A stretch of DNA of 64,000 nucleotides from Amycolatopsis solani (GTDB lineage: Bacteria > Actinomycetota > Actinomycetes > Mycobacteriales > Pseudonocardiaceae): NCBI RefSeq assembly GCF_033441515.1, contig NZ_JAWQJT010000001.1, positions 2,852,001 to 2,916,000 of the forward strand. The letters run 5' to 3'. Positions within the stretch are counted from its first letter, which is position 1. Every line of letters begins with the position of its first letter. Positions 17,026 to 63,012 of this stretch are shown piece after piece. Below the pieces are notes generated by a model, which was not told where the DNA came from, ran no database searches, and was given only the letters and a program-made list of their open reading frames with translations. The translations under genes and the position numbers were made by a program.

Positions 17026-17561
17026 GGGACAGCGCGGTCATCGAGGCGCCGCCGGTTCGGGAGGTGCGGCGACCGGGGCCGGCAGGACGGACAACGCGCT
17101 CACTGAGGTGCTGCCGGTTTGGGGCGGTGCGGCCACCGGGTGTCGGCGGGACGGACAACACGGTCGGCGAGGTGCTGCCGGTTCGGATGGCGCCGCCACG
17201 GGGTGCTGGCGGGACGAGCAGTGGGGTCGCCGAGTTGCCGCCGGTTGGAGCGGCGCGGCCGCCGGGGGCCGGCGGGATGGACAGCGCGGTCACTGAGGTG
17301 CTGCCGGTTCGGGCGGCGCGGCTACGCGGGTCGGCGGGGCGGACAACGCGCTCACTGAGGTGCTGCAGGTTCGGGCGGTGCGGCCACGCGGGTCGGCGGG
17401 GCGGACAACGCGGTCGCCGAGGTGCTGCCGGTTTGGACGGCGCGGCCCGAGGTGCTGGCGGGACGGACAGCGCGATCGCCGAGTTGCCGCCGGTTGGAGC
17501 GGCGCGGCCACCGGGTGTCGTCGGCGCGGGCAACGCGCTCACCGTGGTTCCGCCGGTCCGG
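17026..17561. repeat. Minisatellite, about 8.5 units of 60-64 bp
   Basis: Units begin near 17026, 17086, 17150, 17213 and so on, each with a GACGGACARCGCG start, a GAGGTGCTGCCGGTT core and a GGTGTCGGCGG end. Unit lengths alternate among 60, 62, 63 and 64 bp, so no reading frame is preserved through the array on either strand. That argues against coding. The array lies between the ArsR and MFS genes, and its last unit runs into the 3' end of the ArsR gene. Confidence 0.85.
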
Positions 17562-50367: not shown

Positions 50368-50580
50368 TAGGCACTGTGCCCGGTGCCGGAACCCGGTCTC
50401 GACGCACCTGGCGCGGTGGTCGTGTACGCTGGGTGGTGACCGAGTGCATTTCGTGCGCAAGCCTGCGCCGTCCTCGGCTCTCATTCGGCCGGTGGCCCCA
50501 ACCCTCTGTTCGCCGAATCGCTTGCGGTGCCATCGCTTCGCGGAGTGGCACCAAGAAAGGAATCCCCGATCACTTCTCCA

Positions 50581-50739
50581 GTGGACTGCTCGTTGTTCAG
50601 TCACCCGATCGCCGACGAACCCCGGCCCGAAACGGTCACCGCGCCCCAGGAGAGCCGGTACGGAAGCCTGTTCCGCCAGCCGGTGTACACCCCGGCGACG
50701 TCTGGCGACGGGACCGAACCCGCCCCGCGCCGGCGATGA
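50581..50739 (+). CDS. Possible small protein, 52 aa
   Basis: A frame from GTG 50581 encodes a basic, Pro-rich 52-residue peptide ending in GTEPAPRRR. The nearest Shine-Dalgarno-like sequence (AAAGGA) is too far upstream for this GTG, so support is weak. Confidence 0.25.
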   Translation: MDCSLFSHPIADEPRPETVTAPQESRYGSLFRQPVYTPATSGDGTEPAPRRR

Positions 50740-50824: not shown

Positions 50825-50869
50825 GTGCCCTCGGCAGGATTCGAACCTGCGACACCTGCCTCCGGAGGG
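50825..50869 (-). repeat. attachment-site repeat: tRNA-Arg(CCG) 3' fragment
   Basis: The 45 nt are identical to 57672-57716 of the intact tRNA-Arg. They cover the anticodon stem-loop onward through the T arm and acceptor 3' strand, then diverge. It is the distal att site left by integration. Confidence 0.85.
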
Positions 50870-50944: not shown

Positions 50945-50960
50945 TGGGCACGCATTGGGC
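50945..50960 (+). repeat. Short direct repeat near island left end
   Basis: The 16-mer TGGGCACGCATTGGGC recurs at 57547-57562 near the right end in the same orientation. A degenerate copy lies at 53967-53981. These may be arm-type integrase sites. Confidence 0.5.
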
Positions 50961-51112
50961 ATGGTTCGTGCCAGCAGGACCCGCATCAGCACCTGTTGAA
51001 CCCGACGGCCTGGTAGCCGCCGTCCCACCCTTGGCGAGTTCGAGGCGGAAGATTCCGATCGATGTAGGCCCCGTGGACGGCGGGTCGATCGAGAGGTTGC
51101 ACGGGTTGGCCC

Positions 51113-53668
51113 TTATTGGCTCCCGAGGGTGTCCTCGTTCAGCTCCCGAGTCCGCTGATGCTCACCCAGGTTCCGGAGGTCGATGGCGAGGCCGGCGGAC
51201 TTGAGGGTGTCGGGGTGGTCTTCACCCAGGATGCGCTGGCGGCGGGCGAGGGTGTCCTCGTTCAGCTCCCGAGCCCGCTGATGCTCACCCAGGTTCCGGA
51301 GGTCGATGGCGAGGTTGCTGGCGGAGATGAGGGTGTCGGGGTGGTCTTCACCCAGGATGCGCTGGAGGCGGGCGAGGGTGTCCTCGTTCAGCTCCCGAGC
51401 CCGCTGATGCTCACCCAGATCGCCGAGGTCGATGGCGAGGTTGCCGGCGGAGGAGAGGGTGTTGGGGTGGTCTTCACCCAGGATGCGCTGGCGGCGGGCG
51501 AGGGTGTCCTCGTTCAGCTCCCGAGCCTGCTGATGCTCACCCAGGTTCCGGAGGTCGATGGCGAGGTTGTTGGCGGACTTGAGGGTGTCGGGGTGGTCTT
51601 CACCCAGGATGCGCTGGCGGCGGGCGAGGGTGTCCTCGTCCAGCTCCCGAGCCCGCTGATGCTCACCCAGGTTCCGGAGGTCGATGGCGAGGTTGCTGGC
51701 GGAGGAGAGGGTGTCGGGGCGGTCCCCGCCCGTGACGCGCTGGCGGCGGGCGAGGGTGTCCTCGTTCAGCTCCCGAGCCCGCTGATGCTCACCCAGATCG
51801 CTGAGGTCGAGGGCGAGATTATTGGCGTAGGAGAGGGTGTCGGGGTGGTCCTCGCCGAGGCGATCCCTGCTCAGGGTGTAGGCCCGCTCAAACAGCGGCA
51901 ATGCTCGGCGGGGGTCGCCACTGGTCTTGAGGTAGATCGCGGTCCGATCGAGCAAACGGGCTACTTCGTTCGCTGCTGGCTGCCAGGCTCGTTCGGGGTC
52001 GCACACGACCAGCAGGTGCGGGAGAAGCTCTCGCCAGCGCGGCCAGCTCGGCGGGTTGGCCCAGGGTTCGTCAGGCTTCCCGGCGTAGAGCAGCCGGATC
52101 GCGGTGACCGGCCAGGTCGAGTCCCGGTCGCCCTCGGCGGTGACGTCGCCTCGGGTGCGCGCCCGCAGCAGCGCGGCGGGGACCCGGTGGAGCTGGATGG
52201 TCGTGGTGGTTACCTCGGCCATCCCGCGGCTGCGCAGCGCGGCCGTAATATCGGCGAAGGCCAGCGGATCCCGCGCAACAGCCCCAGCCTCGCCCTGCTG
52301 ATGGGAGAGCAAGGTGAGCGGCACCGGCTCGGGAGCGAGCCACGCCACCAAGGTCAGGACGTTCAAGGCAGCGGGGTGGTCGCGGGCCAGCCGATCGAAC
52401 GACACGGCCCACGCCGCGGTCAGCGAGACCGGGTAGCTGCTGCCCTTCTCATGGCGGGCCAGCAGGTCATGGACGCGCTCGGCGAGCAGCTCGAGGTACT
52501 CCCCGGCGGTCAGACTGGTCGTGACCAGCAGGCGCACTGCCTGGTTCACGGCCAAGGGCAGGTCGCCCAGAGCATCAGCGATCCGGTCGGCGTCAGTGTT
52601 GGTGAGCCGGTCACAGCGGGTGCGCAGCAGCTCGACCGACTCGGGACGGGTGAACTCCCGCACCGCGAGTGCGGCGCCGATGTCGTCCCAATCGGGGTTG
52701 CGGGAGGTGATGATCACATGCCCGGCACCACCGGGCAGCAGGGGACGTAGGGCGGCGGGGTCTTCGGCGTTGTCGAACACCACCAGCCACCGCCCCTGCG
52801 ACTCCAGCGCCCCGCGCAACCGGGCCACGGCGACCGCGGGTGAGTCCTGGCCGGTGGTCAGGTCCAGAGCTTGGGCCAGTTCAGCGAGGTGGCCGATGAT
52901 GAGGTCGGGGTCCTCCGACGGGATCCACCAGGCCACGTCATAGTCCTCAGCGTGGCGGTGGGCGTACTCGATCGCGGTGGTCGTCTTGCCGACCCCGCCC
53001 ATCCCGTTGAGCGCCTGCACTACCGCCGGCCGCCCAGAACACAACGCATCCCGCAGCCTGGTCAATAGCTCGTCGCGGCCGGTGAAAGTGGCCGTCCGCG
53101 CGGGGATGTTCGAGATCCGGCCAACGAGCTTCGAATCCGGCCGGGAGCGAGCGACCCGATTTAGAGCCCGTTCCAGCTTGGCCGCCAGTTCGTCGGGCGA
53201 GGACACCTTGGTGATGGCGAGACCGCTGTCGGGCAGCCGTTTGCGGAACGCCTCCTGCCGCGCCCCGTACTGCAAGTCACGGATCAGCGCCGGTGGCCCT
53301 TCGGTGTCTTCGGCCAGCATGAACACCAGCCGTGGCATACCGGTATCGGTGGCAATCTGAAATTCCTGCTCGGTGTAGGAGACATCCGGGCGGTCTCGTA
53401 CCGGCATGCCGTACCGGAATCCCGCGATCAGCACGTAGATGTCGGCCTCGGCCAGCATCTCCTGATCGAGCTGTTCGGGTGTCGCGTCGCGAGCGGTGAA
53501 GGCGGACATGTCCACCACCGCATCCCCCGCCGCGGCCACCGCGTCCTTCGCCGCCCCCACGAACGACCGCGGCTTCGGCCACTCCGCGAGCTCGCTGGTG
53601 TGGCTGAGAAACACCCGCCTCGCCGGCGGCTTCCGTCCCTGCCTCTCGACAGGCTCCCCGACCGCCAA
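51113..53668 (-). CDS. NLR/STAND-like protein: DUF4062-NB-ARC-TPR, paralog 1
   Basis: The 851-residue protein has an N-terminal DUF4062 (TIR-like fold) domain beginning RRVFLSHTSELAEWPKPRSF, an NB-ARC ATPase with P-loop GMGGVGKTT, Walker B LVVFDNAED, the sensor VIITSRNPDW and a GLPLA-like LGDLPLAVNQ, then a winged-helix-like region. A C-terminal array of six TPR_10-type repeats plus a partial one follows. TTG 53668 is chosen because AGGAGG lies 6 nt upstream and paralogs align there. By family analogy it would be an ATP-dependent sensor that oligomerises on ligand binding and activates its N-terminal effector. A defence role is inference. Confidence 0.82.
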   Translation of the reverse strand: MAVGEPVERQGRKPPARRVFLSHTSELAEWPKPRSFVGAAKDAVAAAGDAVVDMSAFTARDATPEQLDQEMLAEADIYVLIAGFRYGMPVRDRPDVSYTEQEFQIATDTGMPRLVFMLAEDTEGPPALIRDLQYGARQEAFRKRLPDSGLAITKVSSPDELAAKLERALNRVARSRPDSKLVGRISNIPARTATFTGRDELLTRLRDALCSGRPAVVQALNGMGGVGKTTTAIEYAHRHAEDYDVAWWIPSEDPDLIIGHLAELAQALDLTTGQDSPAVAVARLRGALESQGRWLVVFDNAEDPAALRPLLPGGAGHVIITSRNPDWDDIGAALAVREFTRPESVELLRTRCDRLTNTDADRIADALGDLPLAVNQAVRLLVTTSLTAGEYLELLAERVHDLLARHEKGSSYPVSLTAAWAVSFDRLARDHPAALNVLTLVAWLAPEPVPLTLLSHQQGEAGAVARDPLAFADITAALRSRGMAEVTTTTIQLHRVPAALLRARTRGDVTAEGDRDSTWPVTAIRLLYAGKPDEPWANPPSWPRWRELLPHLLVVCDPERAWQPAANEVARLLDRTAIYLKTSGDPRRALPLFERAYTLSRDRLGEDHPDTLSYANNLALDLSDLGEHQRARELNEDTLARRQRVTGGDRPDTLSSASNLAIDLRNLGEHQRARELDEDTLARRQRILGEDHPDTLKSANNLAIDLRNLGEHQQARELNEDTLARRQRILGEDHPNTLSSAGNLAIDLGDLGEHQRARELNEDTLARLQRILGEDHPDTLISASNLAIDLRNLGEHQRARELNEDTLARRQRILGEDHPDTLKSAGLAIDLRNLGEHQRTRELNEDTLGSQ
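51116..51907 (-). repeat. 126-bp TPR-coding tandem array, paralog 1
   Basis: Six near-identical units of 126 bp (42 codons; one of 123 bp) plus a partial one. The consensus RARELNEDTLARRQRILGED repeats with few changes. Confidence 0.9.
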
Positions 53669-53698
53669 CCCCCGCCTCCTCACACCGCCGTTCCTCGG

Positions 53699-53729
53699 AA
53701 CAGTCTCCCTCGTTCGCCCGGACGTTACG
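53699..53729 (-). promoter_or_regulatory. Shared upstream element of NLR paralog 1
   Basis: CGTAACG-N15-GAGACTGTT lies upstream of the start. Both halves and the 15-nt spacing are identical in paralogs 2 and 3. Confidence 0.6.
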
Positions 53730-53759
53730 GAGTCGGCTGAGTCGCGCACCGCTTAACAC

Positions 53760-53805
53760 GACGAAGGCCAGGTCAGCGAAAGTGCCGCCTGACCTGGCCT
53801 TCGTC
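53760..53805. terminator. 17-bp hairpin beside tRNA-Ala remnant
   Basis: Arms 53760-53776 and 53789-53805 are perfectly complementary with a 12-nt loop. It lies just beyond the 3' end of the tRNA-Ala fragment, in the position of a tRNA terminator. Confidence 0.7.
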
Positions 53806-53820
53806 ACTTCTTTTCGGATG

Positions 53821-53863
53821 TGGAGCTGAGGGGAATCGAACCCCTGACCCCCGCCTTGCAAAT
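53821..53863 (-). repeat. tRNA-Ala(TGC) 3' half
   Basis: The minus strand reads the anticodon loop TTTGCAA, the 3' anticodon stem, variable loop, T arm (GGGGTTCGATTCCCC) and acceptor strand CAGCTCC plus discriminator A. The 5' half is missing, and other sequence precedes the loop. It is a tRNA-derived att remnant, not a functional tRNA. Confidence 0.75.
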
Positions 53864-54026
53864 GTCCGTACACAGATCATACTCGACCTGGGGAACCTAA
53901 AGTCGCAGGTCAGGCGGCCGAATTCCCCGCTGTTGCCCGTCGGTACCCGTGCCCTCCCGACCGATCGGGCACGCAAGGGGCGCGGTCGGCCAGTCGCCAT
54001 TGGGCACTCGTGCAGGTAGATGGCCC

Positions 54027-56588
54027 TTATTGGCCAGCGAGGGTGTTCGGGTCCAGCTCCCGAGCCCGCTCAGACTCACCCGGCTCCCTTAGGTCGAAGG
54101 CGAGGTTGTTGGCGGAGGTGAGGGTGTCGGGATGGTTCTCGCCGAGGACGCGTTTGCGGCGGGCGAGGGTGTCCTCATCCAGCTCCCGAGCCCGCTCATA
54201 CTCACCTAGCTTCCTGAGGTCACCAGCGAGGTTGTTGGCGGAGGTGAGGGTGTCGGGGTGGTTCTCGCCGAGGACGCGTTTGCGGCGGGCGAGGGTGTCC
54301 TCGTCCAGCTCCCGAGCCCGCTCATACTCACCTAGCTCCCTGAGGTCACCAGCGAGGTTGTTGGCGGAGATGAGAGTACCGGGGTGGTCGTCGCCGACAT
54401 CGCGCTTGCGGCGGGCGAGGGTGTCCTCGTCCAGCTCCCGAGCCCGCTCATACTCACCCAAGAACCAGTGGTCTAGGGCGACGTTGACGGCGGAGACGAG
54501 GGTGTCGGAGTGGTCGTCGCCGAGAACGCGCTTGCAGCGGGTGAAGGTGTCCTCGTCCAGCTCCCGAGCCCGCTCATACTCACCCAGCTCCCTGAGGTCG
54601 GCGGCGAGGTTGCTGGCGGAGGCGAGGGTGTCGGGATGGTTCTCGCCGAGAACGCGCTTGTAGCGGGCGAGGGCGTCCTCGTCCAGCTCACAAGCCCGCT
54701 CATACTCACCCAATTCCCTGAGGTCGAGGGCGAGGTTGCAGGCGGAGGCGACGGTGGCGGGGGCATCTATGCCGAGAAGATCCCTGCGGAGCACGTAGGC
54801 CCGCTGAAAGAGTGGCAATGCGGTGCGAGGGTCGCCACGGGTCTGGAGATAGGAGGCGGCGCGGTCGAGTAGGTGGGCGACTTCTCTCGCGACCGGCTGC
54901 CATGCGCGGTGGGAGTCGCAGGCGAATAGCAGGTGCGGGAGGATTTCTTGCCAGCGTGCCCAGCTCGGCGGGTTGTTCCAGGGATCGTCAGGCTGACCGG
55001 CGTCTAGCAGCTGGACTGCGATGACTTGCCAGGTCGAGTTTGGGTCGTTCTCGGTGAGGATGTCGCCGCGGGTGCGTGCGCGCAGCAGTGCTGCGGGGAC
55101 CCGGTGGAGCTGGATCGTGGCGGTGGTGACCTCGGCCATCCCGCGGCTGCGCAGCGCGGTCGTGACGTCGGCGAAGGCCAGCGGGTCCCGTGCAGTGACT
55201 CCGGCGTCGCCCTGCTGGTGGGTGAGCAGGCCGAGTGGCACCGGTTCGGGAGCCAGCCACGCCACCAACGTCAAGGTGTTCAGCGCGGCCGGGTTGTCGC
55301 GGGCGAGCTGGTCGAACGACACCGTCCACGCCGCGGTCAGCGAGAGGGGGTAGCCGCCGCTCTGCTCATGGCGGGCCATCAGGTCATGGATGCGCTCGTC
55401 GAGCAGTTCGAGGTATTTCTCGACGGTCAGGCTGGTCGTCGCGAGGAGTCGTGCTGCCTGGTTGACGGCCAAGGGCAGGTCACCCAGGGCATCGGCGATG
55501 CGGTCGGCGTCGGATTCAGTGAGCCGGTCACAGCGGGTTCTCAGCAGCTGGACCGACTCGGGGCGGGCGAATTCCCGCACCGGTAGCGCGGCGCCGATGT
55601 CGTCCCAGTCGGGATTGCGGGAGGTGATGATCACGTGCCCGTCACCGGCGGGCAGCAGCGGGCGCAGGGCGGTTGGCTCTTCGGCGTTGTCGAACACCAC
55701 CAGCCACCGCCCACGTGATTCCAGCTCGCCGCGCAACCGGGCCACGGCAATATCTGGCAAGTCCTGGCTAGCGGATAAGTCCATGGCTTGGGCGAGGGCG
55801 GCAAGGTTGCCGAGGATGAGGTCGGGGTCTTCCGACGGGACCCACCAGGCCACCTCGTAATCTCCGGCGTGACGGTGGGCGTACTCAATCGCCGTGGTGG
55901 TCTTGCCGACCCCGCCCATCCCGTTGAGTGCCTGCACCACCGCCGGCTGACCAGTACACAACGCATCCCGCAGGCTGGTCAGCAGTTCGTCGCGACCGGT
56001 GAAGGTGACGGTTCGAGCGGGAATGTTGGAGATCCGGCGAACGGGCTTCGACTCCTGGAGGGAGCGGGGGACCCGGTTCAGAGCTCGCTCCAGCTTGGTC
56101 GCCAGTTCGGCGGGTGAGGAAACCTTGGTGATGGTGAGGCCGCTGTCCGGCAGTCGTTGCCGGAACGCTTCCTGCCGGCGACCGTAGTCCAGGTCCTGGA
56201 TCAGCGCCGGTGGCCCTTCGGTGTCCTTATCCAGCACAAATACCAGCCGCTCCATGCCGGTGGCGGTGGCGATCCCGAACTCCTGCTCGGTGTAGGAAAC
56301 CTCCGGACGGCCCCGCACCGGCGTGCCGTACCGGAAACCGGCGATCAGGACGTAGATGTCGGCCTCGGCTAGCATCTCCCGGTCGAGTTCCTCCGGTGTC
56401 GCGTCCCTGGCGGTGAAGGCGGACATGTCCACCACCGCATCCCCGGCCGCGGCCACCGCGTCCTTCGCCGCCGCTACGAACGACCGCGGCTTCGGCCACT
56501 CCGCAAGCTCGCTGGTGTGACTAAGGAACACTCGCCTCGCCGGCGACTTCCGCCCCTGCCCCTCGGCAGACTCCCCGACCACCAGCAC
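54027..56588 (-). CDS. NLR/STAND-like protein: DUF4062-NB-ARC-TPR, paralog 2
   Basis: The 853-residue protein has the same architecture as its neighbour: DUF4062 (about residues 17-170), NB-ARC with GMGGVGKTT, LVVFDNAEE, VIITSRNPDW and LGDLPLAVNQ, and six TPR repeats plus a partial one. The repeats have a distinct consensus, RARELDEDTLARRKRVLGEN. A GTG start follows GGGGAGC. The ATPase core is nearly identical to that of paralog 1 while the repeats differ, as expected if repeats recognise different ligands (inference). Confidence 0.82.
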   Translation of the reverse strand: MLVVGESAEGQGRKSPARRVFLSHTSELAEWPKPRSFVAAAKDAVAAAGDAVVDMSAFTARDATPEELDREMLAEADIYVLIAGFRYGTPVRGRPEVSYTEQEFGIATATGMERLVFVLDKDTEGPPALIQDLDYGRRQEAFRQRLPDSGLTITKVSSPAELATKLERALNRVPRSLQESKPVRRISNIPARTVTFTGRDELLTSLRDALCTGQPAVVQALNGMGGVGKTTTAIEYAHRHAGDYEVAWWVPSEDPDLILGNLAALAQAMDLSASQDLPDIAVARLRGELESRGRWLVVFDNAEEPTALRPLLPAGDGHVIITSRNPDWDDIGAALPVREFARPESVQLLRTRCDRLTESDADRIADALGDLPLAVNQAARLLATTSLTVEKYLELLDERIHDLMARHEQSGGYPLSLTAAWTVSFDQLARDNPAALNTLTLVAWLAPEPVPLGLLTHQQGDAGVTARDPLAFADVTTALRSRGMAEVTTATIQLHRVPAALLRARTRGDILTENDPNSTWQVIAVQLLDAGQPDDPWNNPPSWARWQEILPHLLFACDSHRAWQPVAREVAHLLDRAASYLQTRGDPRTALPLFQRAYVLRRDLLGIDAPATVASACNLALDLRELGEYERACELDEDALARYKRVLGENHPDTLASASNLAADLRELGEYERARELDEDTFTRCKRVLGDDHSDTLVSAVNVALDHWFLGEYERARELDEDTLARRKRDVGDDHPGTLISANNLAGDLRELGEYERARELDEDTLARRKRVLGENHPDTLTSANNLAGDLRKLGEYERARELDEDTLARRKRVLGENHPDTLTSANNLAFDLREPGESERARELDPNTLAGQ
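54030..54824 (-). repeat. 126-bp TPR-coding tandem array, paralog 2
   Basis: Six units of 126 bp plus a partial one. The last two full units are nearly identical to each other, indicating recent duplication; the third unit is more diverged. Confidence 0.9.
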
Positions 56589-56614
56589 CCGCTCCCCACA
56601 CCGCCGACTTCGTA

Positions 56615-56647
56615 GAAACAGTCTCCCCGATCCACGCGGGCGTTACG
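56615..56647 (-). promoter_or_regulatory. Shared upstream element of NLR paralog 2
   Basis: CGTAACG-N15-GAGACTGTT, with the same spacing as paralogs 1 and 3. A shared GTCGGCGG-(T/C)GTGGGGAGCGGGTG leader follows. Confidence 0.6.
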
Positions 56648-56840
56648 AGGCCAGGAAGACAGCAGCGATCGGTAAGGTCAAACCGAGAACCGTCCGCTTT
56701 TCAGATCTCGGCACGACCGTTCGGCGGGGGTCGTACGGAGGCTGACGCGCAGGTCAGCGCGACCACCGGAACAGCAGCAACAGCTTGAACGGACGCGAAC
56801 TGAGACGGAGACTGAGACGGCGTCTGACCAGCCGATACGG

Positions 56841-57134
56841 TCACGACCTGCGGGTGAACTGCTCGTAGTAGCCCGGCTGGTTGTCGGGTTGGACCGTCAG
56901 GCCGGAGACGTAGAACACCGTGTTGCCCTTTGCATCTCGGCCGTCGGCCCAGCCGGGACCGGTGGACCAGACGAGCGGGCCGGGGTTGTCGGGATGCTGG
57001 GCACGAAACCCGTTGAGGTTCGCGATCGCCTTTTCGACGGACTCGTACGCGGTCGTGTGGATGCCGGGCTGGGCGGACGTGGTGCGGTCGTGCACCACGT
57101 ACACGACTCGCTTGCTGCTTGTCATGGAAGTCAT
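56841..57134 (-). CDS. Hypothetical protein, 97 aa
   Basis: The frame encodes a 97-residue soluble protein with KRVVYVVHDRTTSAQPG at the start and a central KAIANLNGFRAQHPDNPGP helix-loop. The start is uncertain (ATG 57134 or 57125), and no ribosome-binding site is seen. No family is recognised. It lies between NLR paralog 2 and the integrase fragment, so it is probable island cargo. Confidence 0.5.
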   Translation of the reverse strand: MTSMTSSKRVVYVVHDRTTSAQPGIHTTAYESVEKAIANLNGFRAQHPDNPGPLVWSTGPGWADGRDAKGNTVFYVSGLTVQPDNQPGYYEQFTRRS

Positions 57135-57241
57135 TGTGCCAGCTGTAGCCAGGCTGTCACTGCGTGCAACTCAACCCGCCGGTACCACGTCGGGACGCGC
57201 CGACGGCAGCAAGCCGCCGGCCATCTCCTTCGTGGGCGGTG

Positions 57242-57472
57242 CGCAAACTGATCCTGTCCGAGGAGGTCGCCAAGACACCGCTAGCGGCGCGGCCCTACGA
57301 CCTTCGCCACGCCGCCGTCAGCACGCAACTGGCCGCCGGCGTCGATGCGGCGACGGTCGCGGAGTGGGCAGGGCACTCGGTCTCGGTGCTGCTGGAGATT
57401 TACGCCGCGTTCCTGGACGGGGGACAGGCCGCCAATCGCGCGCGAATCGAGGCGATCCTCGGCCACCGATAG
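57242..57472 (+). pseudogene. Tyrosine recombinase (integrase), C-terminal fragment
   Basis: About 76 residues match the catalytic C terminus of phage-type integrases: the Arg-His box (RPYDLRHAAVS), the GHSVSVLLEIYAAF motif with the catalytic His and nucleophilic Tyr, and a helical tail. The arm-binding and core-binding domains and the first catalytic Arg are absent, so it is not functional. It reads toward the intact tRNA-Arg, the usual arrangement. Confidence 0.75.
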
Positions 57473-57546
57473 CCGAGACGTGGTGTGACCAGAGACACGC
57501 CAACGCGGTCCTGGAGGCTCGATCTCGGGGGAGCTGGCCACATCCG

Positions 57547-57562
57547 TGGGCACGCATTGGGC
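57547..57562 (+). repeat. Short direct repeat near island right end
   Basis: It is identical to the 16-mer at 50945-50960. It lies about 110 nt from the intact tRNA. Confidence 0.5.
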
Positions 57563-57672
57563 GTGAACACTCGTTCATGATCGGTTCGAGTCGGAGAGAA
57601 CTGGAGTGCGGGAAGAGCCGCTTCGTGAGAGAAAGTGCTGATGAGAAGCGGTTTTTCCCGCTCCCATAGGGG

Positions 57673-57745
57673 TGCCCTCGGCAGGATTCGAACCTGCGAC
57701 ACCTGCCTCCGGAGGGCAGTGCTCTATCCCCTGAGCTACGAGGGC
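57673..57745 (-). tRNA. tRNA-Arg(CCG)
   Basis: The 73-nt cloverleaf has acceptor stem GCCCTCG/CGAGGGC, a D arm with AGCTCAGGGGATAGAGCA, an anticodon loop CTCCGGA (anticodon CCG), a T arm GCAGGTTCGAATCCTGC and discriminator A. CCA is not encoded. Its 3' part is duplicated at 50825-50869. Confidence 0.95.
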
Positions 57746-57896
57746 CCATCGCTGGGCGACCTCGAAAGCTTAGCGCATCCCCCGAACCCCCTGCGACCAG
57801 GTTCCCCCACCCAGGTTTCCCCAGGTCAACGCTATGAAGTTGATCGGTTGCACACTCCGTCGCTAGCGTGGAGAACCCCACCCGAAGGAGCCCGCG

Positions 57897-59009
57897 ATGG
57901 CCGAGCCGTTCCAGGTAGCTCTCGATGAGAGCGACATCGCCGACCTGCGGGAGCGGTTGCGGCGGACCCGGTGGCCCGAGAGCGAAACCGTCGGCGACTG
58001 GTCGCAGGGCGTGCCGCTCGCCTACGTCAAGGAACTCTGCCGGGACTGGGGCGAGGAGTACGACTTCGGGTTCGCACGGCGGCTGAACGCCTTCCCGCAG
58101 TTCAAAGCCACCGTCGACGGCGTGGGGGTGCACTTCCTGCACGTCCGGTCGGAGGTGCCCGGCGCGTTCCCGCTCGTGCTCACCCACGGGTGGCCCGGGT
58201 CCGTCCTCGAATTCCTCGACGTCATCGGGCCGCTCACCGACCCCGCCCAGTACGGGGGCGATCCGGCTGATGCCTTCCACGTCGTCGTGCCGTCGCTGCC
58301 CGGGTTCGGGTGGAGCGACAAGCCCGCGCTGAAGATCCCGCGGGTCGCCGCGCTGTGGGACCAGCTCATGGTGTCGCTCGGCTACGACCGCTACGGCGCC
58401 CAGGGCGGTGATTGGGGTGCCGCCATCACGAACGCCCTCGCCAAGGTCGCGCCCGGGCGCGTCGCCGGGGTGCACGTCAACTTCGCGCCCGTGCGGATGG
58501 ACCAGGGCGACCTGACGGCCTCGGAGCAGCGGGCGCTCGCCGACCTCCAGGAATTCCGGCGGACCGGCAGCGGCTACTCCGCCGAGCAGGGCACGCGGCC
58601 GCAGACGCTCGGGTACGGGCTCACCGACTCGCCCGCCGGGCAGGCCGCCTGGATCGTCGAGAAGTTCTGGGCCTGGACCGACCACAAGGGGCACCCCGAG
58701 GACGCCGTCGACCGGCAGAAGATCCTCGACGACATCTCGGTCTACTGGTTCACCGCGACCGCCGCGTCCTCGGCGCGGATGTACTGGGAGAACAACGATC
58801 GCGACCTGTCCACGGTGGACGTGCCGGCCGGGGTTTCGGTGTTCCCCAAGGAGATCGTGCGCCCGTCGCGGCGGCAGGCCGAGCAGCGCTACACCGATCT
58901 GCGCTGGTTCGAGGAGCTGCCCGCCGGCGGGCACTTCGCCGCGCTCGAGCAGCCGCAGCTGTTCGTCGAGCAGGTTCGCGGGTTCTTCCGGCTGGTGCGC
59001 GAAGCGTGA
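57897..59009 (+). CDS. Epoxide hydrolase (alpha/beta hydrolase with EHN domain)
   Basis: The 370-residue enzyme has an N-terminal EHN domain (ADLRERLRRTRWPE), the oxyanion-hole HGWPGS, the nucleophilic Asp in AQGGDWGAAI, and the catalytic His in PAGGHFAALEQP. It would hydrolyse epoxides to diols; the substrate is unknown. An AAGGAG ribosome-binding site precedes the ATG. Confidence 0.9.
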   Translation: MAEPFQVALDESDIADLRERLRRTRWPESETVGDWSQGVPLAYVKELCRDWGEEYDFGFARRLNAFPQFKATVDGVGVHFLHVRSEVPGAFPLVLTHGWPGSVLEFLDVIGPLTDPAQYGGDPADAFHVVVPSLPGFGWSDKPALKIPRVAALWDQLMVSLGYDRYGAQGGDWGAAITNALAKVAPGRVAGVHVNFAPVRMDQGDLTASEQRALADLQEFRRTGSGYSAEQGTRPQTLGYGLTDSPAGQAAWIVEKFWAWTDHKGHPEDAVDRQKILDDISVYWFTATAASSARMYWENNDRDLSTVDVPAGVSVFPKEIVRPSRRQAEQRYTDLRWFEELPAGGHFAALEQPQLFVEQVRGFFRLVREA

Positions 59010-59013
59010 CGGG

Positions 59014-59045
59014 ATCCACCAGGCGGGAAACCCCGCCTGGTGGAT
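59014..59045 (+). terminator. Terminator of the epoxide hydrolase gene
   Basis: Perfect 14-bp arms (59014-59027 and 59032-59045) with a 4-nt loop begin 5 nt after the stop codon. Confidence 0.75.
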
Positions 59046-59103
59046 TGGTCACCGCCGTCGTCCGGGGTAACTTTCCGAGTGGGTGAACTTAGGCTGCCCT
59101 CTG

Positions 59104-59131
59104 TTGCACATATGCGCATCTCACTATATGT
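59104..59131 (+). promoter_or_regulatory. Promoter with candidate metalloregulator operator
   Basis: TTGCAC (59104-59109) and TATATG (59125-59130) could be -35/-10 boxes with 15-nt spacing. They overlap the interrupted palindrome ACATAT-N12-ATATGT (59108-59131), which resembles ArsR/SmtB-type metal-sensor operators. Confidence 0.5.
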
Positions 59132-59164
59132 TTGCGGCGACGGTGAACCGGGAACGGAGGCAGC

Positions 59165-60085
59165 ATGGGGCAGGGACACGGCCACGGGCACGCGATCGCG
59201 CCGGCGAGCGCGTCGGGCCGGTACGTGCGGAGCCTGACCATCGCCCTGGCCATCGGCGCCGGCTTCATGGTGCTCGAGTTCGCCGTCGGCTTCGCGACCG
59301 GCTCACTGGCCCTGATCTCGGACGCGGCCCACATGTTCACCGACGTCCTCGGCGTCGGCATGGCCCTGGCGGCGATCATCCTGGCGCGCCGAAGCGGCCC
59401 CACGATCAGCCGCACGTTCGGCCTCTACCGCGCGGAGGTCCTGGCGGCGCTGGGCAACGCGATCCTCCTCTTCGGCGTCGCGGGCTACGTCCTCATCGAG
59501 GCCGTGGACCGGATCGGCAACCCACCCGCGGTCCCCGGCCTACCGGTTTTGCTGGCCGCGGCGGCCGGCCTGGTGGCCAACATCGTGTCGTTCACGGTGC
59601 TGCGTTCGGGGGCCAAGGAGAGCCTCAACGTCCGCGGCGCGTACCTCGAAGTGGTCGCCGACCTGATCGGCTCGGTCGGCGTCCTGATCAGCGGCGCTTT
59701 GACGCTCCTCACTGGCTGGCGCTATGCGGACCCGATCATCGGTGTGGCGATCGGGCTGTTCGTGCTGCCGCGCACGTGGGTGCTGGCTCGGCGGGCGCTG
59801 CGGATCTTGTTCCAGCACGCGCCGCAGGGGGTGGACGTCGGGGCGATCAACGCTGAGCTGGCTGCGCTGCCTGGGGTGGCGGATGTGCATGACCTGCATG
59901 TCTGGACGCTGACGTCGGGGATGGAGGTGGCTTCGGCGCATCTGACGCTGGCGCCGCCTGCGCAGCAGTCGGACGTGTTGACGGAGGCGCAGAACCTGCT
60001 GGCTTCGCGGTATGCGATCGAGCATGCGACGTTGCAGGTGGAGGCGCCGCAGTGTGCTCGGCGGTGCCAGGAGCTTTCCTGGTAG
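59165..60085 (+). CDS. Cation diffusion facilitator (zinc/cadmium exporter)
   Basis: The 306-residue CDF transporter has a His-rich N terminus (GHGHGHA), six transmembrane segments, the metal-site motif SDAAHMFTD and a C-terminal cytoplasmic domain with DVHDLHVWTLTSGM. It exports Zn2+ or similar ions. GGAGG lies 4 nt before the ATG. The upstream palindrome suggests metal-responsive control. Confidence 0.92.
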   Translation: MGQGHGHGHAIAPASASGRYVRSLTIALAIGAGFMVLEFAVGFATGSLALISDAAHMFTDVLGVGMALAAIILARRSGPTISRTFGLYRAEVLAALGNAILLFGVAGYVLIEAVDRIGNPPAVPGLPVLLAAAAGLVANIVSFTVLRSGAKESLNVRGAYLEVVADLIGSVGVLISGALTLLTGWRYADPIIGVAIGLFVLPRTWVLARRALRILFQHAPQGVDVGAINAELAALPGVADVHDLHVWTLTSGMEVASAHLTLAPPAQQSDVLTEAQNLLASRYAIEHATLQVEAPQCARRCQELSW

Positions 60086-60088
60086 CGC

Positions 60089-60119
60089 CGTAACGCCTGC
60101 GCGGACCGTGGAGACTGTT
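60089..60119 (+). promoter_or_regulatory. Shared upstream element of NLR paralog 3
   Basis: CGTAACG-N15-GAGACTGTT begins 4 nt after the CDF stop codon, with the same halves and spacing as at paralogs 1 and 2. Confidence 0.6.
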
Positions 60120-60147
60120 CCTACGATGTCGGCGGCGTGGGGAGCGG

Positions 60148-63012
60148 GTGGTGGTGGTCGGGGAGCACGAGCGACCGCCTGCGCGGCGGGTGTTTCTCAG
60201 TCACACCAGTGAGCTTGCGGAGTGGCCGAAGCCCCGGTCGTTCGTGGCGGCGGCGAAGGACGCGGTGGCCGCGGCTGGGGATGCGGTGGTGGACATGTCC
60301 GCGTTCACGGCGCGGGACGTGACGCCGGAGCAACTCGACCAGGAGATGCTGGCTGAGGCTGACATCTACGTGCTGATCGCCGGTTTCCGCTACGGCACGC
60401 CGGTGCGAGGCCGCCCGGAAGTCTCTTACTGCGAGCAGGAGTTCGAGGTCGCCACCGCCACCGGCATGGAGCGGCTGGTGTTCGTGCTGGCCGAGGACAC
60501 CGAAGGGCCACCGGCGCTGGTCCGGGACCTGGATTACGGTCGCCGTCAGGAAGCGTTCCGCCAACGGCTGCCGAACAGCGGGCTGACCATCACCATGGTG
60601 TCCTCGCCTGGTGAGCTGGCGACCAAGCTGGAGCGGGCGCTGAATCGGGTCCCCCGCTCTGGACGGGAGTCGAAGCTCGCCGGCCGGATCTCGAACATCC
60701 CCGCCCGCACAGCCACCTTCACCGGTCGCGACGAGCTGCTGACCGGTCTGCGTGCGGCGTTGTGTGCCGGGCAGCCGGCGGTGGTGCAGGCGTTGAACGG
60801 GATGGGCGGGGTCGGCAAGACCACCACCGCGATCGAGTACGCCTATCGTCATGCCGAGGACTACGACGTGGCCTGGTGGGTGCCGTCGGAAGATCCTGAC
60901 CTCGTTCTCGGCAACCTGGCCGCGCTCGCCCAGGCTTTGGACTTGTCCACGGGCCAGGACTCGCCGGACGTCGCGGTGGCCCGGTTGCGCGGGGTACTGG
61001 AGTCCCGCAGCAGGTGGCTGGTGGTGTTCGACAACGCCGAGGACCCCACCGCGTTGCGCCCGCTGCTGCCCAGCGGGGGCGGGCACGTGATCATCACCTC
61101 CCGCAATCCCGACTGGGACGACATCGGTGCCGCGTTGTCGGTGCGGGAATTCAGCCGTCCCGAGTCGGTCCAGTTGCTGCGAACCCGCTGTGGCCGGCTT
61201 ACCGAGTCCGACGCTGACCGCGTCGCCGAGGCCCTGGGTGATCTGCCCTTGGCCGTCAACCAGGCAGCACGACTCCTCGCGACAACCAATCTTACTGCCG
61301 AGAAATACCTCGAACTGCTCGACGAGCGCATCCACGACCTGATGTCCCGACACGAGAAAGGCGGCAGCTACCCCGTCTCACTGGCGGCGGCGTGGACGGT
61401 GTCGTTCGACCAGCTCGCCCGCGACCACCCCGCCGCGCTGCACACCCTGACCATGGTGGCGTGGCTGGCTCCCGAACCTGTGCCGCTCACCCTGCTCACC
61501 CACCAGCAAGGCGACGCAGGGGCCACCGCGCAGGACCCGCTGGCCTTCGCCGACGTCACGGCCGCATTGCGCAGCCGCGGCATGGCCGAGGTCACCACCA
61601 CGACCATCCAGCTCCATCGAGTCCCCGCCGCCCTCCTGCGGGCACGCACCCGCGAGGACATCGCTACCAGGGACGACCGAGACTCGACCTGGCCGGTCAC
61701 CGCCGTCCGGCTGCTCCACGCGGGTCAGCCTGACGATCCCTGGAGCAACCCGCCGAGCTGGCCCCGCTGGCGAGAACTTCTCCCGCATCTGCTGTTCGTG
61801 TGTGACCCGCACCGCGCATGGCAGCCGGCAGCGCAGGAAGTCTCCGAGTTGCTCGACCGCACCGCAACCTACCTCCATACCCGTGGTGACGCCCGCGCCG
61901 CACTTCCGCTGTTTCAGCGGGCCTACGCACTTGACAGGGGTCGCCTCGGTGACGACCACCCCGACACCCTCACCGCCGTCGGAGGCCTCGCCCTCGCCCT
62001 CGGCGACCTGGGTGAGTATCAGCGGGCACGTGAGCTGGACGAGGACACGCTTGCCCGCTCGAAACGCGTCCTCGGCGACGACCACCCCGACACCCTCACC
62101 TCAGCTAACGGTCTCGCCATCGACCTCAGCAACCTGGGTGAGTATCAGCAGGCCCGCGAGCTGAACGAAGACACCCTCACCCGCCGCAGACGCGTGCTCG
62201 GCGACGACCACCCCGACACCCTCACCACCGCCAACAACCTCGCCATCGACCTCAGCAACCTGGCCGAACATCAGCAGGCCCGCGAGCTGAACGAAGACAC
62301 CCTCACCCGCCGCAGACGCGTGCTCGGCGACGACCACCCCGACACCCTCACCACCGCCAACAACCTCGCCATCGACCTCAGCAACCTAGGTGAGCATGAT
62401 CGCGCTCACGAGCTGAACGAGGACACGCTTGCCCGCTCGAAACGCGTCCTCGGCGACGACCATCCCCTGACGCTCACCACCGTCAGCAACCTCGCCCTCG
62501 ACCTCAGCAACCTGGGCGAACATCAGCAGGCCCGCGAGCTGAACGAAGACACGCTTGCCCGTTCCAAGCGCGTCCTCGGCGACGACCACCCCGACACCCT
62601 CACCTCCGCCAGCAACCTCGCCATCGACCTCAGCAACCTGGGCGAACACGAGCAGGCCCGCGAGCTGAACGAAGACACGCTTGCCCGTTCCAAGCGCGTC
62701 CTCGGCGACGACAACCCTCACACCCTCACCACCGCCAACAATCTCGCCACCGACCTTCGGGCGCTAGGTGAACACCAGCAAGCCCGAGAACTGAACGAAG
62801 ACACGCTTGCCCGTTCCAAGCGCGTCCTCGGCGACGACCACCCTCACACCCTCATCACCGCCGACAACCTCGCCACCGACCTTCGGTTGCTGGGTGAGCA
62901 CCAGCAGGCTCGCGAACTGCACGAGGACACCCTCACCCGAAGCAAACGCATGCTCGGCCGTCAGCGGCCCTCTCGGGGCACCCAGGTCCAACCCTTACAC
63001 AGCACAAGCTGA
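60148..63012 (+). CDS. NLR/STAND-like protein: DUF4062-NB-ARC-TPR, paralog 3
   Basis: The 954-residue protein has DUF4062 at about 13-165, P-loop Gly218-Thr225 (GMGGVGKT), Walker B Asp295, the VIITSRNPDW sensor, and eight 42-residue TPR repeats from residue 584 plus a partial one. GTG 60148 follows GGGGAGC. It is on the plus strand, outside the tRNA-Arg boundary, with the same leader as paralog 2. The repeat consensus (QARELNEDTLARSKRVLGDD) differs from both others. Its last about 15 residues depart from the repeat. Confidence 0.83.
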   Translation: MVVVGEHERPPARRVFLSHTSELAEWPKPRSFVAAAKDAVAAAGDAVVDMSAFTARDVTPEQLDQEMLAEADIYVLIAGFRYGTPVRGRPEVSYCEQEFEVATATGMERLVFVLAEDTEGPPALVRDLDYGRRQEAFRQRLPNSGLTITMVSSPGELATKLERALNRVPRSGRESKLAGRISNIPARTATFTGRDELLTGLRAALCAGQPAVVQALNGMGGVGKTTTAIEYAYRHAEDYDVAWWVPSEDPDLVLGNLAALAQALDLSTGQDSPDVAVARLRGVLESRSRWLVVFDNAEDPTALRPLLPSGGGHVIITSRNPDWDDIGAALSVREFSRPESVQLLRTRCGRLTESDADRVAEALGDLPLAVNQAARLLATTNLTAEKYLELLDERIHDLMSRHEKGGSYPVSLAAAWTVSFDQLARDHPAALHTLTMVAWLAPEPVPLTLLTHQQGDAGATAQDPLAFADVTAALRSRGMAEVTTTTIQLHRVPAALLRARTREDIATRDDRDSTWPVTAVRLLHAGQPDDPWSNPPSWPRWRELLPHLLFVCDPHRAWQPAAQEVSELLDRTATYLHTRGDARAALPLFQRAYALDRGRLGDDHPDTLTAVGGLALALGDLGEYQRARELDEDTLARSKRVLGDDHPDTLTSANGLAIDLSNLGEYQQARELNEDTLTRRRRVLGDDHPDTLTTANNLAIDLSNLAEHQQARELNEDTLTRRRRVLGDDHPDTLTTANNLAIDLSNLGEHDRAHELNEDTLARSKRVLGDDHPLTLTTVSNLALDLSNLGEHQQARELNEDTLARSKRVLGDDHPDTLTSASNLAIDLSNLGEHEQARELNEDTLARSKRVLGDDNPHTLTTANNLATDLRALGEHQQARELNEDTLARSKRVLGDDHPHTLITADNLATDLRLLGEHQQARELHEDTLTRSKRMLGRQRPSRGTQVQPLHSTS
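61897..63009 (+). repeat. 126-bp TPR-coding tandem array, paralog 3
   Basis: Eight 126-bp units plus a partial one. Neighbouring units near 62160-62390 and 62520-62700 are almost identical at the DNA level. Confidence 0.9.

Follow-up and report, generated by a model that had tools for sequence, protein, structure and literature searches.

DUF4062 has been described in a 2026 preprint as a TIR-like domain that hydrolyses NAD+ (an NADase) and acts in antiphage defence through abortive infection (PMC13174449). In that work, the Swarozyc protein of Klebsiella pneumoniae (KpSwz) needs residue E97 for phage defence and is triggered by the phage portal, and the human protein TEP1, which like human NPHP3 carries DUF4062 beside an ATPase of the STAND class (signal transduction ATPases with numerous domains), is active as an NADase (PMC13174449). 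Bacterial NLRs (NOD-like receptors) forming BASS3/BELL amyloid signalosomes have been described separately (PMC7889193, PMC8086366), as have fungal NLR repeats, TPRs (tetratricopeptide repeats) included, that consist of near-identical units, evolve in concert and show positive selection at ligand-facing sites (PMC4986451). One gene family joins these three threads of DUF4062 NADases, RHIM-like bacterial amyloid NLRs and fast-evolving repeat sensors. Three of its members lie in a 64,000-nucleotide (nt) stretch of the genome of the soil actinobacterium Amycolatopsis solani (contig NZ_JAWQJT010000001.1, positions 2,852,001 to 2,916,000; hereafter the window), and on balance we favour reading them as solo NLR-type abortive-infection receptors, in which the TPR array would sense, the NB-ARC domain oligomerise and DUF4062 hydrolyse NAD+.

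No description of bacterial DUF4062–NB-ARC–TPR receptors was found in the literature titles, abstract beginnings and passages covered, which dealt with DUF4062, FxSxx, bacterial amyloid NLRs, STAND/TPR repeats, concerted evolution of NLR repeats and NB-ARC–TPR NADases; the words TPR and tetratricopeptide do not occur in the main text (as distinct from the supplements) of PMC13174449. What is new here is the variation on the ligand face of the TPRs, the RHIM-like motif in some copies, the common promoter-like element and tRNA placement, and the copy number of 0 to 6.

The three open reading frames (ORFs) of this architecture listed in the first-pass annotation stand as proposed: gene 1 (51113..53749, minus strand), gene 2 (54027..56588, minus strand) and gene 3 (60148..63012, plus strand) all have Pfam matches to DUF4062, NB-ARC and TPR_10/TPR_12, and a hidden Markov model of the repeat unit confirms the unit numbers of 6, 6 and 8 given there. 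Effector, NB-ARC-type NTPase and repeat sensor follow one another in a single chain, which is the STAND/NLR layout, and the NB-ARC motifs GMGGVGKTT, LVVFDNAE, GDLPLA and LHRVP can be recognized by eye. The true start of gene 1 is probably the TTG at 53668, as the listed ORF begins upstream of the gene's own promoter-like element (see below). The whole genome (10.28 Mb, 4 contigs) has four DUF4062 matches, the three in the window and a fourth copy with 11 TPR units at C1:1866559; among the matches listed, the closest named homologs are from Amycolatopsis.

The cores of the three genes, previously called nearly identical, are less alike than that: over 573 codons they share 81.3-85.7% protein and 83.0-85.9% DNA identity, with a synonymous divergence (dS) of 0.44-0.54 and a ratio of nonsynonymous to synonymous divergence (dN/dS) of 0.18-0.22, indicating purifying selection. 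The core of gene 2 is closer to that of gene 3 than to that of gene 1, its neighbour in a tRNA-bounded island. That genes 1 and 2 duplicated in tandem recently is rejected, their cores differing by a dS of 0.50, and gene conversion of cores within the genome is unsupported, gene 3 being 87.3% identical to its syntenic partner L132 and 83.8-85.7% identical to its paralogs.

The chemistry of DUF4062 had been considered uncertain in the first-pass annotation, a statement made out of date by the NAD+ hydrolysis and antiphage role reported in PMC13174449. All three window proteins score over the curated Pfam cut-off for this domain (37.6-39.8 bits, cut-off 24.7), and in sequence and profile searches of the PDB their top match is the set of solved KpSwz structures (10wc/11cq/11cv), with an E-value of 0.01 for a single sequence, 2e-6 for a 6-row profile and 5.7e-11 for a 57-row profile, the last matching over the full length of the domain (positions 4-155 of 158). 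In the 57-row search human TEP1 ranks third (E=0.041, over 27 positions only), and the gene 3 domain has a faint match to Pfam TIR_2, scoring 18.7 bits (E=0.0025) where the cut-off is 28. The first Glu of the motif SY(T/C)ExEF aligns with KpSwz chain residue 82, which is consistent with E97, since the KpSwz constructs begin at 15/16 and simple arithmetic gives that position. This Glu is residue 127 in gene 1 (codon 53369-53371, domain approximately 53150..53620, minus strand), 101 in gene 2 (codon 56286-56288, domain approximately 56067..56537, minus strand) and 96 in gene 3 (codon 60433-60435, domain approximately 60187..60657, plus strand). It is kept in 123/123 proteins, namely the window's three and the 120 listed of 531 matches, and in 56/57 alignment rows from loci, the exception (L057) having Gln.

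Domain and Glu thus agree with the DUF4062 TIR-like NADase family, just as the remainder of the chain agrees with STAND/NLR architecture. The window genes resemble Swarozyc in their homologous DUF4062 and aligned catalytic Glu, but KpSwz has a C-terminal helix-turn-helix/winged domain that binds the portal (PMC13174449), where the window proteins have NB-ARC and a TPR array. A strict Swarozyc of the KpSwz type was rejected for this reason, no portal-binding domain having been found; the stretch 60700-62010 behind the DUF4062 of gene 3 had no PDB match at E 0.001, not even KpSwz. In eight further relatives, DUF4062 is joined to WD40 arrays (four cases, recalling the WD40 repeats of TEP1), to NB-ARC–TPR, to nSTAND1 plus FGE-sulfatase or to VMAP-C (one case each), or stands alone in a short frame (one case), so that by domain composition it looks like an interchangeable effector.

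The sensors are built of 126-bp tandem repeats, present in 5.8, 5.8 and 8.1 copies in genes 1, 2 and 3. Mean DNA identity is 90.5% among the 5 full units of the gene 1 array (51116..51859, minus strand, 42-aa units), 83.2% among the 5 full units of the gene 2 array (54030..54776, minus strand) and 81.3% among the 8 units of the gene 3 array (61945..63009, plus strand). Within-array dS (0.13, 0.25 and 0.46, from 5, 5 and 7 full units) is below core dS in genes 1 and 2, the units of which have therefore been homogenized; this is not clearly so in gene 3.

Among 105 units from 17 related genes, the five of 42 positions with the highest entropy are 21, 17, 10, 13 and 20, position 18 nearly tying with 20 (2.05 vs 2.06). 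Placing the NLA motif on L7-G8 of the standard TPR consensus (an offset of 8) turns them into standard positions 13, 9, 2, 5 and 12. All five belong to the seven positions (2, 5, 9, 12, 13, 33 and 34) published as the most variable and lying on the concave ligand face (Magliery and Regan, PMC1261162). The mapping was made with the entropies already known, so that the two lists agree but were not compared blind. As natural TPRs generally vary at these sites, the pattern shows ligand binding more than immunity. The ratio of nonsynonymous to synonymous differences among units (pN/pS) is 1.48 at the five ligand positions (bootstrap over 17 genes 1.23-1.98) and 0.39 elsewhere; in six genes of other lineages the corresponding values are 1.32 and 0.56, and taken singly, genes 2 and 3 and the fourth copy all exceed 1 at the ligand positions. 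Ranked by pN alone, positions 21, 17, 10, 39 and 13 lead and position 20 is seventh. These ratios come from simple counting with no recombination-aware correction, and it is from them that we infer selection. Near-identical units, variation in unit number and selection at ligand-facing positions are shared with the fungal NB-ARC/TPR and HNWD NLRs (PMC4986451), which differ in being fungal genes with other effectors such as sesB. In this respect the family lends itself to testing in bacteria how NLR sensors diversify, the residues likely to contact the ligand having been named.

If the three genes are indeed abortive-infection receptors, the TPR groove would bind a ligand derived from a phage or another intruder, and the NB-ARC switch, whose motifs are present, would exchange ADP for ATP and oligomerize as in the STAND class at large. 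The oligomer would gather the N-terminal DUF4062 domains and, by analogy with KpSwz and TEP1, NAD+ would be hydrolysed and the cell would stop. The sensors would diversify by turnover of units together with change at the ligand-facing positions. Such a combination of a probable NAD-destroying enzyme, an ATP-driven switch and a fast-changing sensor would be a bacterial parallel to the NLRs of plants, fungi and animals.

We surveyed 80 genomes of the genus. DUF4062 family matches occur in 12/80 genomes and, two weak matches (~50 bits) being left out, there are 25 strong copies in 11 genomes (6, 4, 3, 3, 2 and 2 copies, and five singles). The suggestion that the genes diversify as ligand-sensing STAND/NLR defence genes do is borne out by this patchy multi-copy distribution and by sensors that are most variable at ligand-facing sites, but not by any clustering with defence genes. 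PADLOC matches proved to be scattered both near and far from the copies when 106 near proteins (one of 107, of 1662 residues, was omitted) were compared with 106 of 145 far ones. The near set matched 133 models, of which the 25 examined had at most 2 proteins each and included single PD-T4-6-like, type I methyltransferase-like and mad6-like proteins; the far set matched 25 models, with mad2 in 3 proteins and AriA- and Ptu-like matches. The commonest Pfam families of near neighbours (25 of 116 examined) are regulators, transporters and metabolic enzymes, and none of the three window proteins matches a PADLOC model of the 2023 library at E 0.01.

Several of these results weigh against receptors that meet phage infection with NAD+ hydrolysis. 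Known defence genes are not clearly in excess around the copies, although these are counts of models and not proof of absence, and searches of phage, plasmid and viral contigs turned up no copies. Gene 1 has a pN/pS below 1 at the ligand positions (0.366/0.515). Human NPHP3, NWD1 and NWD2 carry DUF4062 and are reported to have shown no NADase activity (PMC13174449).

The same machine might answer to a different trigger, non-self beyond phage, such as other hyphae (kin recognition), plasmids or competitor toxins, in the manner of the fungal NLRs, built with TPR/WD arrays, that act in heterokaryon incompatibility; we consider this unlikely, but it is the alternative that fares best. Amycolatopsis is mycelial, which counts in its favour, as does the scatter of defence genes around the copies. 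The fungal NB-ARC/TPR and HNWD genes, whose repeats are almost identical, evolve in concert and are positively selected at ligand-facing sites (PMC4986451), lend it further support, but the bacterial DUF4062 proteins tested in PMC13174449 defend against phage. It is quite improbable that DUF4062 is here a catalytically silent adaptor, as in NPHP3 and the NWD proteins, with signalling by assembly only. The inactivity of those human proteins and the union of DUF4062 with a STAND ATPase in NPHP3 speak for such an adaptor, as does a weak match of the window proteins to the NPHP3 TPR model (29-48 bits, cut-off 100). Against it stand a catalytic Glu that is invariant or nearly so and a dN/dS of 0.12-0.16 in the DUF4062 domain itself, again a sign of purifying selection. 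TEP1 and NPHP3, comparable in placing DUF4062 next to a STAND ATPase, differ from the window proteins in having NACHT rather than NB-ARC, and TEP1 resides in the vault particle (PMC13174449). That the genes are accessories of an FxSxx-COOH peptide system, as the NCBI name has it, is barely credible, for although the FxSxx_TPR model NF040586 of NCBIfam scores 604-735 bits (cut-off 300), its match starts behind DUF4062, at residue 184-214, and the genome yields no FxsB radical SAM maturase above the threshold (best 52.2 bits, cut-off 370), which speaks against filing them under that system.

The part matched by NF040586, NB-ARC–TPR, is also what the window proteins have in common with the VMAP-associated AP-ATPase–TPR proteins (PMC7159879), which carry an N-terminal TIR where the window proteins carry DUF4062. 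About 14-20 kb to the left of the window (L039:6253-11635), a gene that by eye resembles one for a MoxR-type ATPase is followed by a gene for a 1487-aa protein that is the genome's best FxSxx_TPR match (844.6 bits); this is perhaps a VMAP-type ternary system.

Returning to the solo receptors, their relatives suggest where they came from. In three of the 25 copies (L047, L142 and L143), a VQIGDGN-type motif at the N-terminus of the NLR is common to the C-terminus of the upstream gene, with scores of 47-75 that lie above all 200 shuffles, an arrangement like that of the BASS3/BELL signalosomes, in which NLR and partner both bear the motif (PMC7889193, PMC8086366). For the L047 partner, the Pfam RHIM score narrowly exceeds its threshold (21.8, cut-off 20) and that for EAD10 falls short. 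Two more copies (L048 and L049) have a RHIM-like motif, seen by eye, on the NLR alone, giving 5/25 with the motif and 3 with a partner, and a motif of another kind links L130 to the ORF upstream of it (score 77, shuffles up to 47). Beyond the genus three loci beat their shuffles, L097 in a low-complexity stretch and L061 and L090 narrowly, and these were excluded from the counts. In the remaining 19/25 copies, the window's included, no such amyloid motif was seen: compared with upstream ORF ends, the N-termini of genes 1, 2 and 3 score at best 28 (against as much as 41 in shuffles), 21 and 20, the last two being under the reporting score of 25 and hence without shuffles. Unlike BASS3/BELL, the window copies have neither motif nor partner, and DUF4062 is not named in the parts of PMC7889193 and PMC8086366 consulted. 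An amyloid signalosome of that kind was accordingly rejected for the window genes, which show no motif shared between the N-terminus and an adjacent partner.

Seventeen of the 19 motif-less copies form one clade with full support (100/100), placed among motif-bearing lineages, of which the nearest, L143, is weakly placed (85/36). Label counts on the tree hold no signal for the motif (shuffles were as low in 500/500), and on the tree alone gain and loss need equally few steps. Loss is favoured by synteny, since behind the same cation-efflux (CDF) transporter gene one finds a partner and an NLR in G019, a partner in G008 and G029, and a solo gene in four species including this one. Judging from the tree and this gene order, the lineage probably goes back to two-gene NLR operons that signalled through amyloid, a relay it has since lost. 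The sites behind this transporter gene offer a natural comparison of amyloid-coupled and solo receptors. At one of them (L288, in G008), an NLR reading frame shows no DUF4062 between the amyloid-motif region and NB-ARC, and these two parts seem to lie in different frames.

More tentatively, we envisage that, once the RHIM-like relay was lost and the DUF4062 NADase kept, promoter-plus-gene cassettes radiated, repeatedly behind tRNA genes, with ligand-selected TPR sensors and a small regulon of their own. Such a radiated lineage would, if real, be a bacterial equivalent of the NLR repertoires of fungi and plants.

The promoter-like element in question is GTAAC-N15-GGAGACT, which may be an ECF-type (extracytoplasmic function) promoter. 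A pattern search places it at 53702..53728 (minus strand) for gene 1, 56620..56646 (minus strand) for gene 2 and 60090..60116 (plus strand) for gene 3, there 4 nt behind the CDF stop codon. It occurs 5 times in the genome, before the four copies and one kelch gene (reversed control 0), and 46 times in 24 of the 80 genomes (reversed control 7). Family genes or their operons follow 20/46 of these occurrences; 20/25 copies carry the element, or 21/25 with a looser pattern, and among the other occurrences are some before kelch genes and some before unrelated ones, in part surely by chance. It was not found within 800 nt upstream in any of 48 more distant loci. The kelch-repeat gene with this rare element is G000:C3:2272661 (L258:7661), and similar kelch genes with the element were seen by eye in NLR-less genomes such as G030, G040, G041 and G061.

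Sequence comparisons suggest that genes and element change places together between species. In the non-syntenic pairs examined, homology starts at the element or at most ~65 nt before it, and ends no more than ~130 nt past the stop codon, or else upstream of it. Gene 3 lies directly behind the CDF gene, with an epoxide hydrolase gene (Pfam) also upstream; the segment 60086..63340 (plus strand) is absent at the matching site of G017 (L196), and four other species lack more than G017 there, up to 64639. In 7/25 copies, the 3' end of a tRNA gene, complete or as a fragment, lies at most 250 nt upstream of the element and on the same strand, counted with the tRNA set of the window's genome; the chance of such a placement is ~0.0006 per gene with 49 tRNAs. 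Six different tRNA sites are involved: Ala-tgc, Thr-cgt, Ala-cgc, Pro-ggg, Val-tac (in two species) and Arg-ccg. The two occupied tRNA-Val sites differ from empty ones (such as L225 and L226) by about one gene length, but no duplicate of the tRNA 3' end, expected from site-specific integration, was found at these copies. A rough motif scan saw no integrase in seven loci, but also missed the window's own fragment. Downstream of tRNA-Val(tac) (L223-L252), the sequence differs between species for up to ~1.3 kb and then becomes shared again, as would be seen at a hotspot of insertion.

As the first-pass annotation had it, genes 1 and 2 lie inside a tRNA-bounded island, and gene 3 lies outside on the opposite strand. 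The island ends are tRNA-Arg(ccg) (57671..57745, minus strand) and a 45-nt copy of its 3' part (50825..50869, minus strand, 100% identical). Within it are a weak C-terminal fragment of a tyrosine recombinase (57164..57469, plus strand; Phage_integrase 17.9 bits against a cut-off of 27.1, E=0.0027) and a 43-nt, 100% identical 3' fragment of tRNA-Ala(tgc) (53820..53862, minus strand), 91 nt before the gene 1 element. Between this fragment and the element lies a perfect 17-bp inverted repeat resembling a terminator (53760-53805). A 19-nt direct repeat (95%) just inside the island ends (50945-50963 and 57547-57565) perhaps represents recombinase arm sites, and an ORF of 97 aa (56841-57134) matches nothing in Pfam or NCBIfam. 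Pieces of a dispersed repeat at 50371-50735, perhaps the remnant of an insertion sequence, recur at numerous sites across other genomes of the genus. Separate from the gene family, the window also holds a 62-bp tandem repeat of 8.5 copies (17027-17561).

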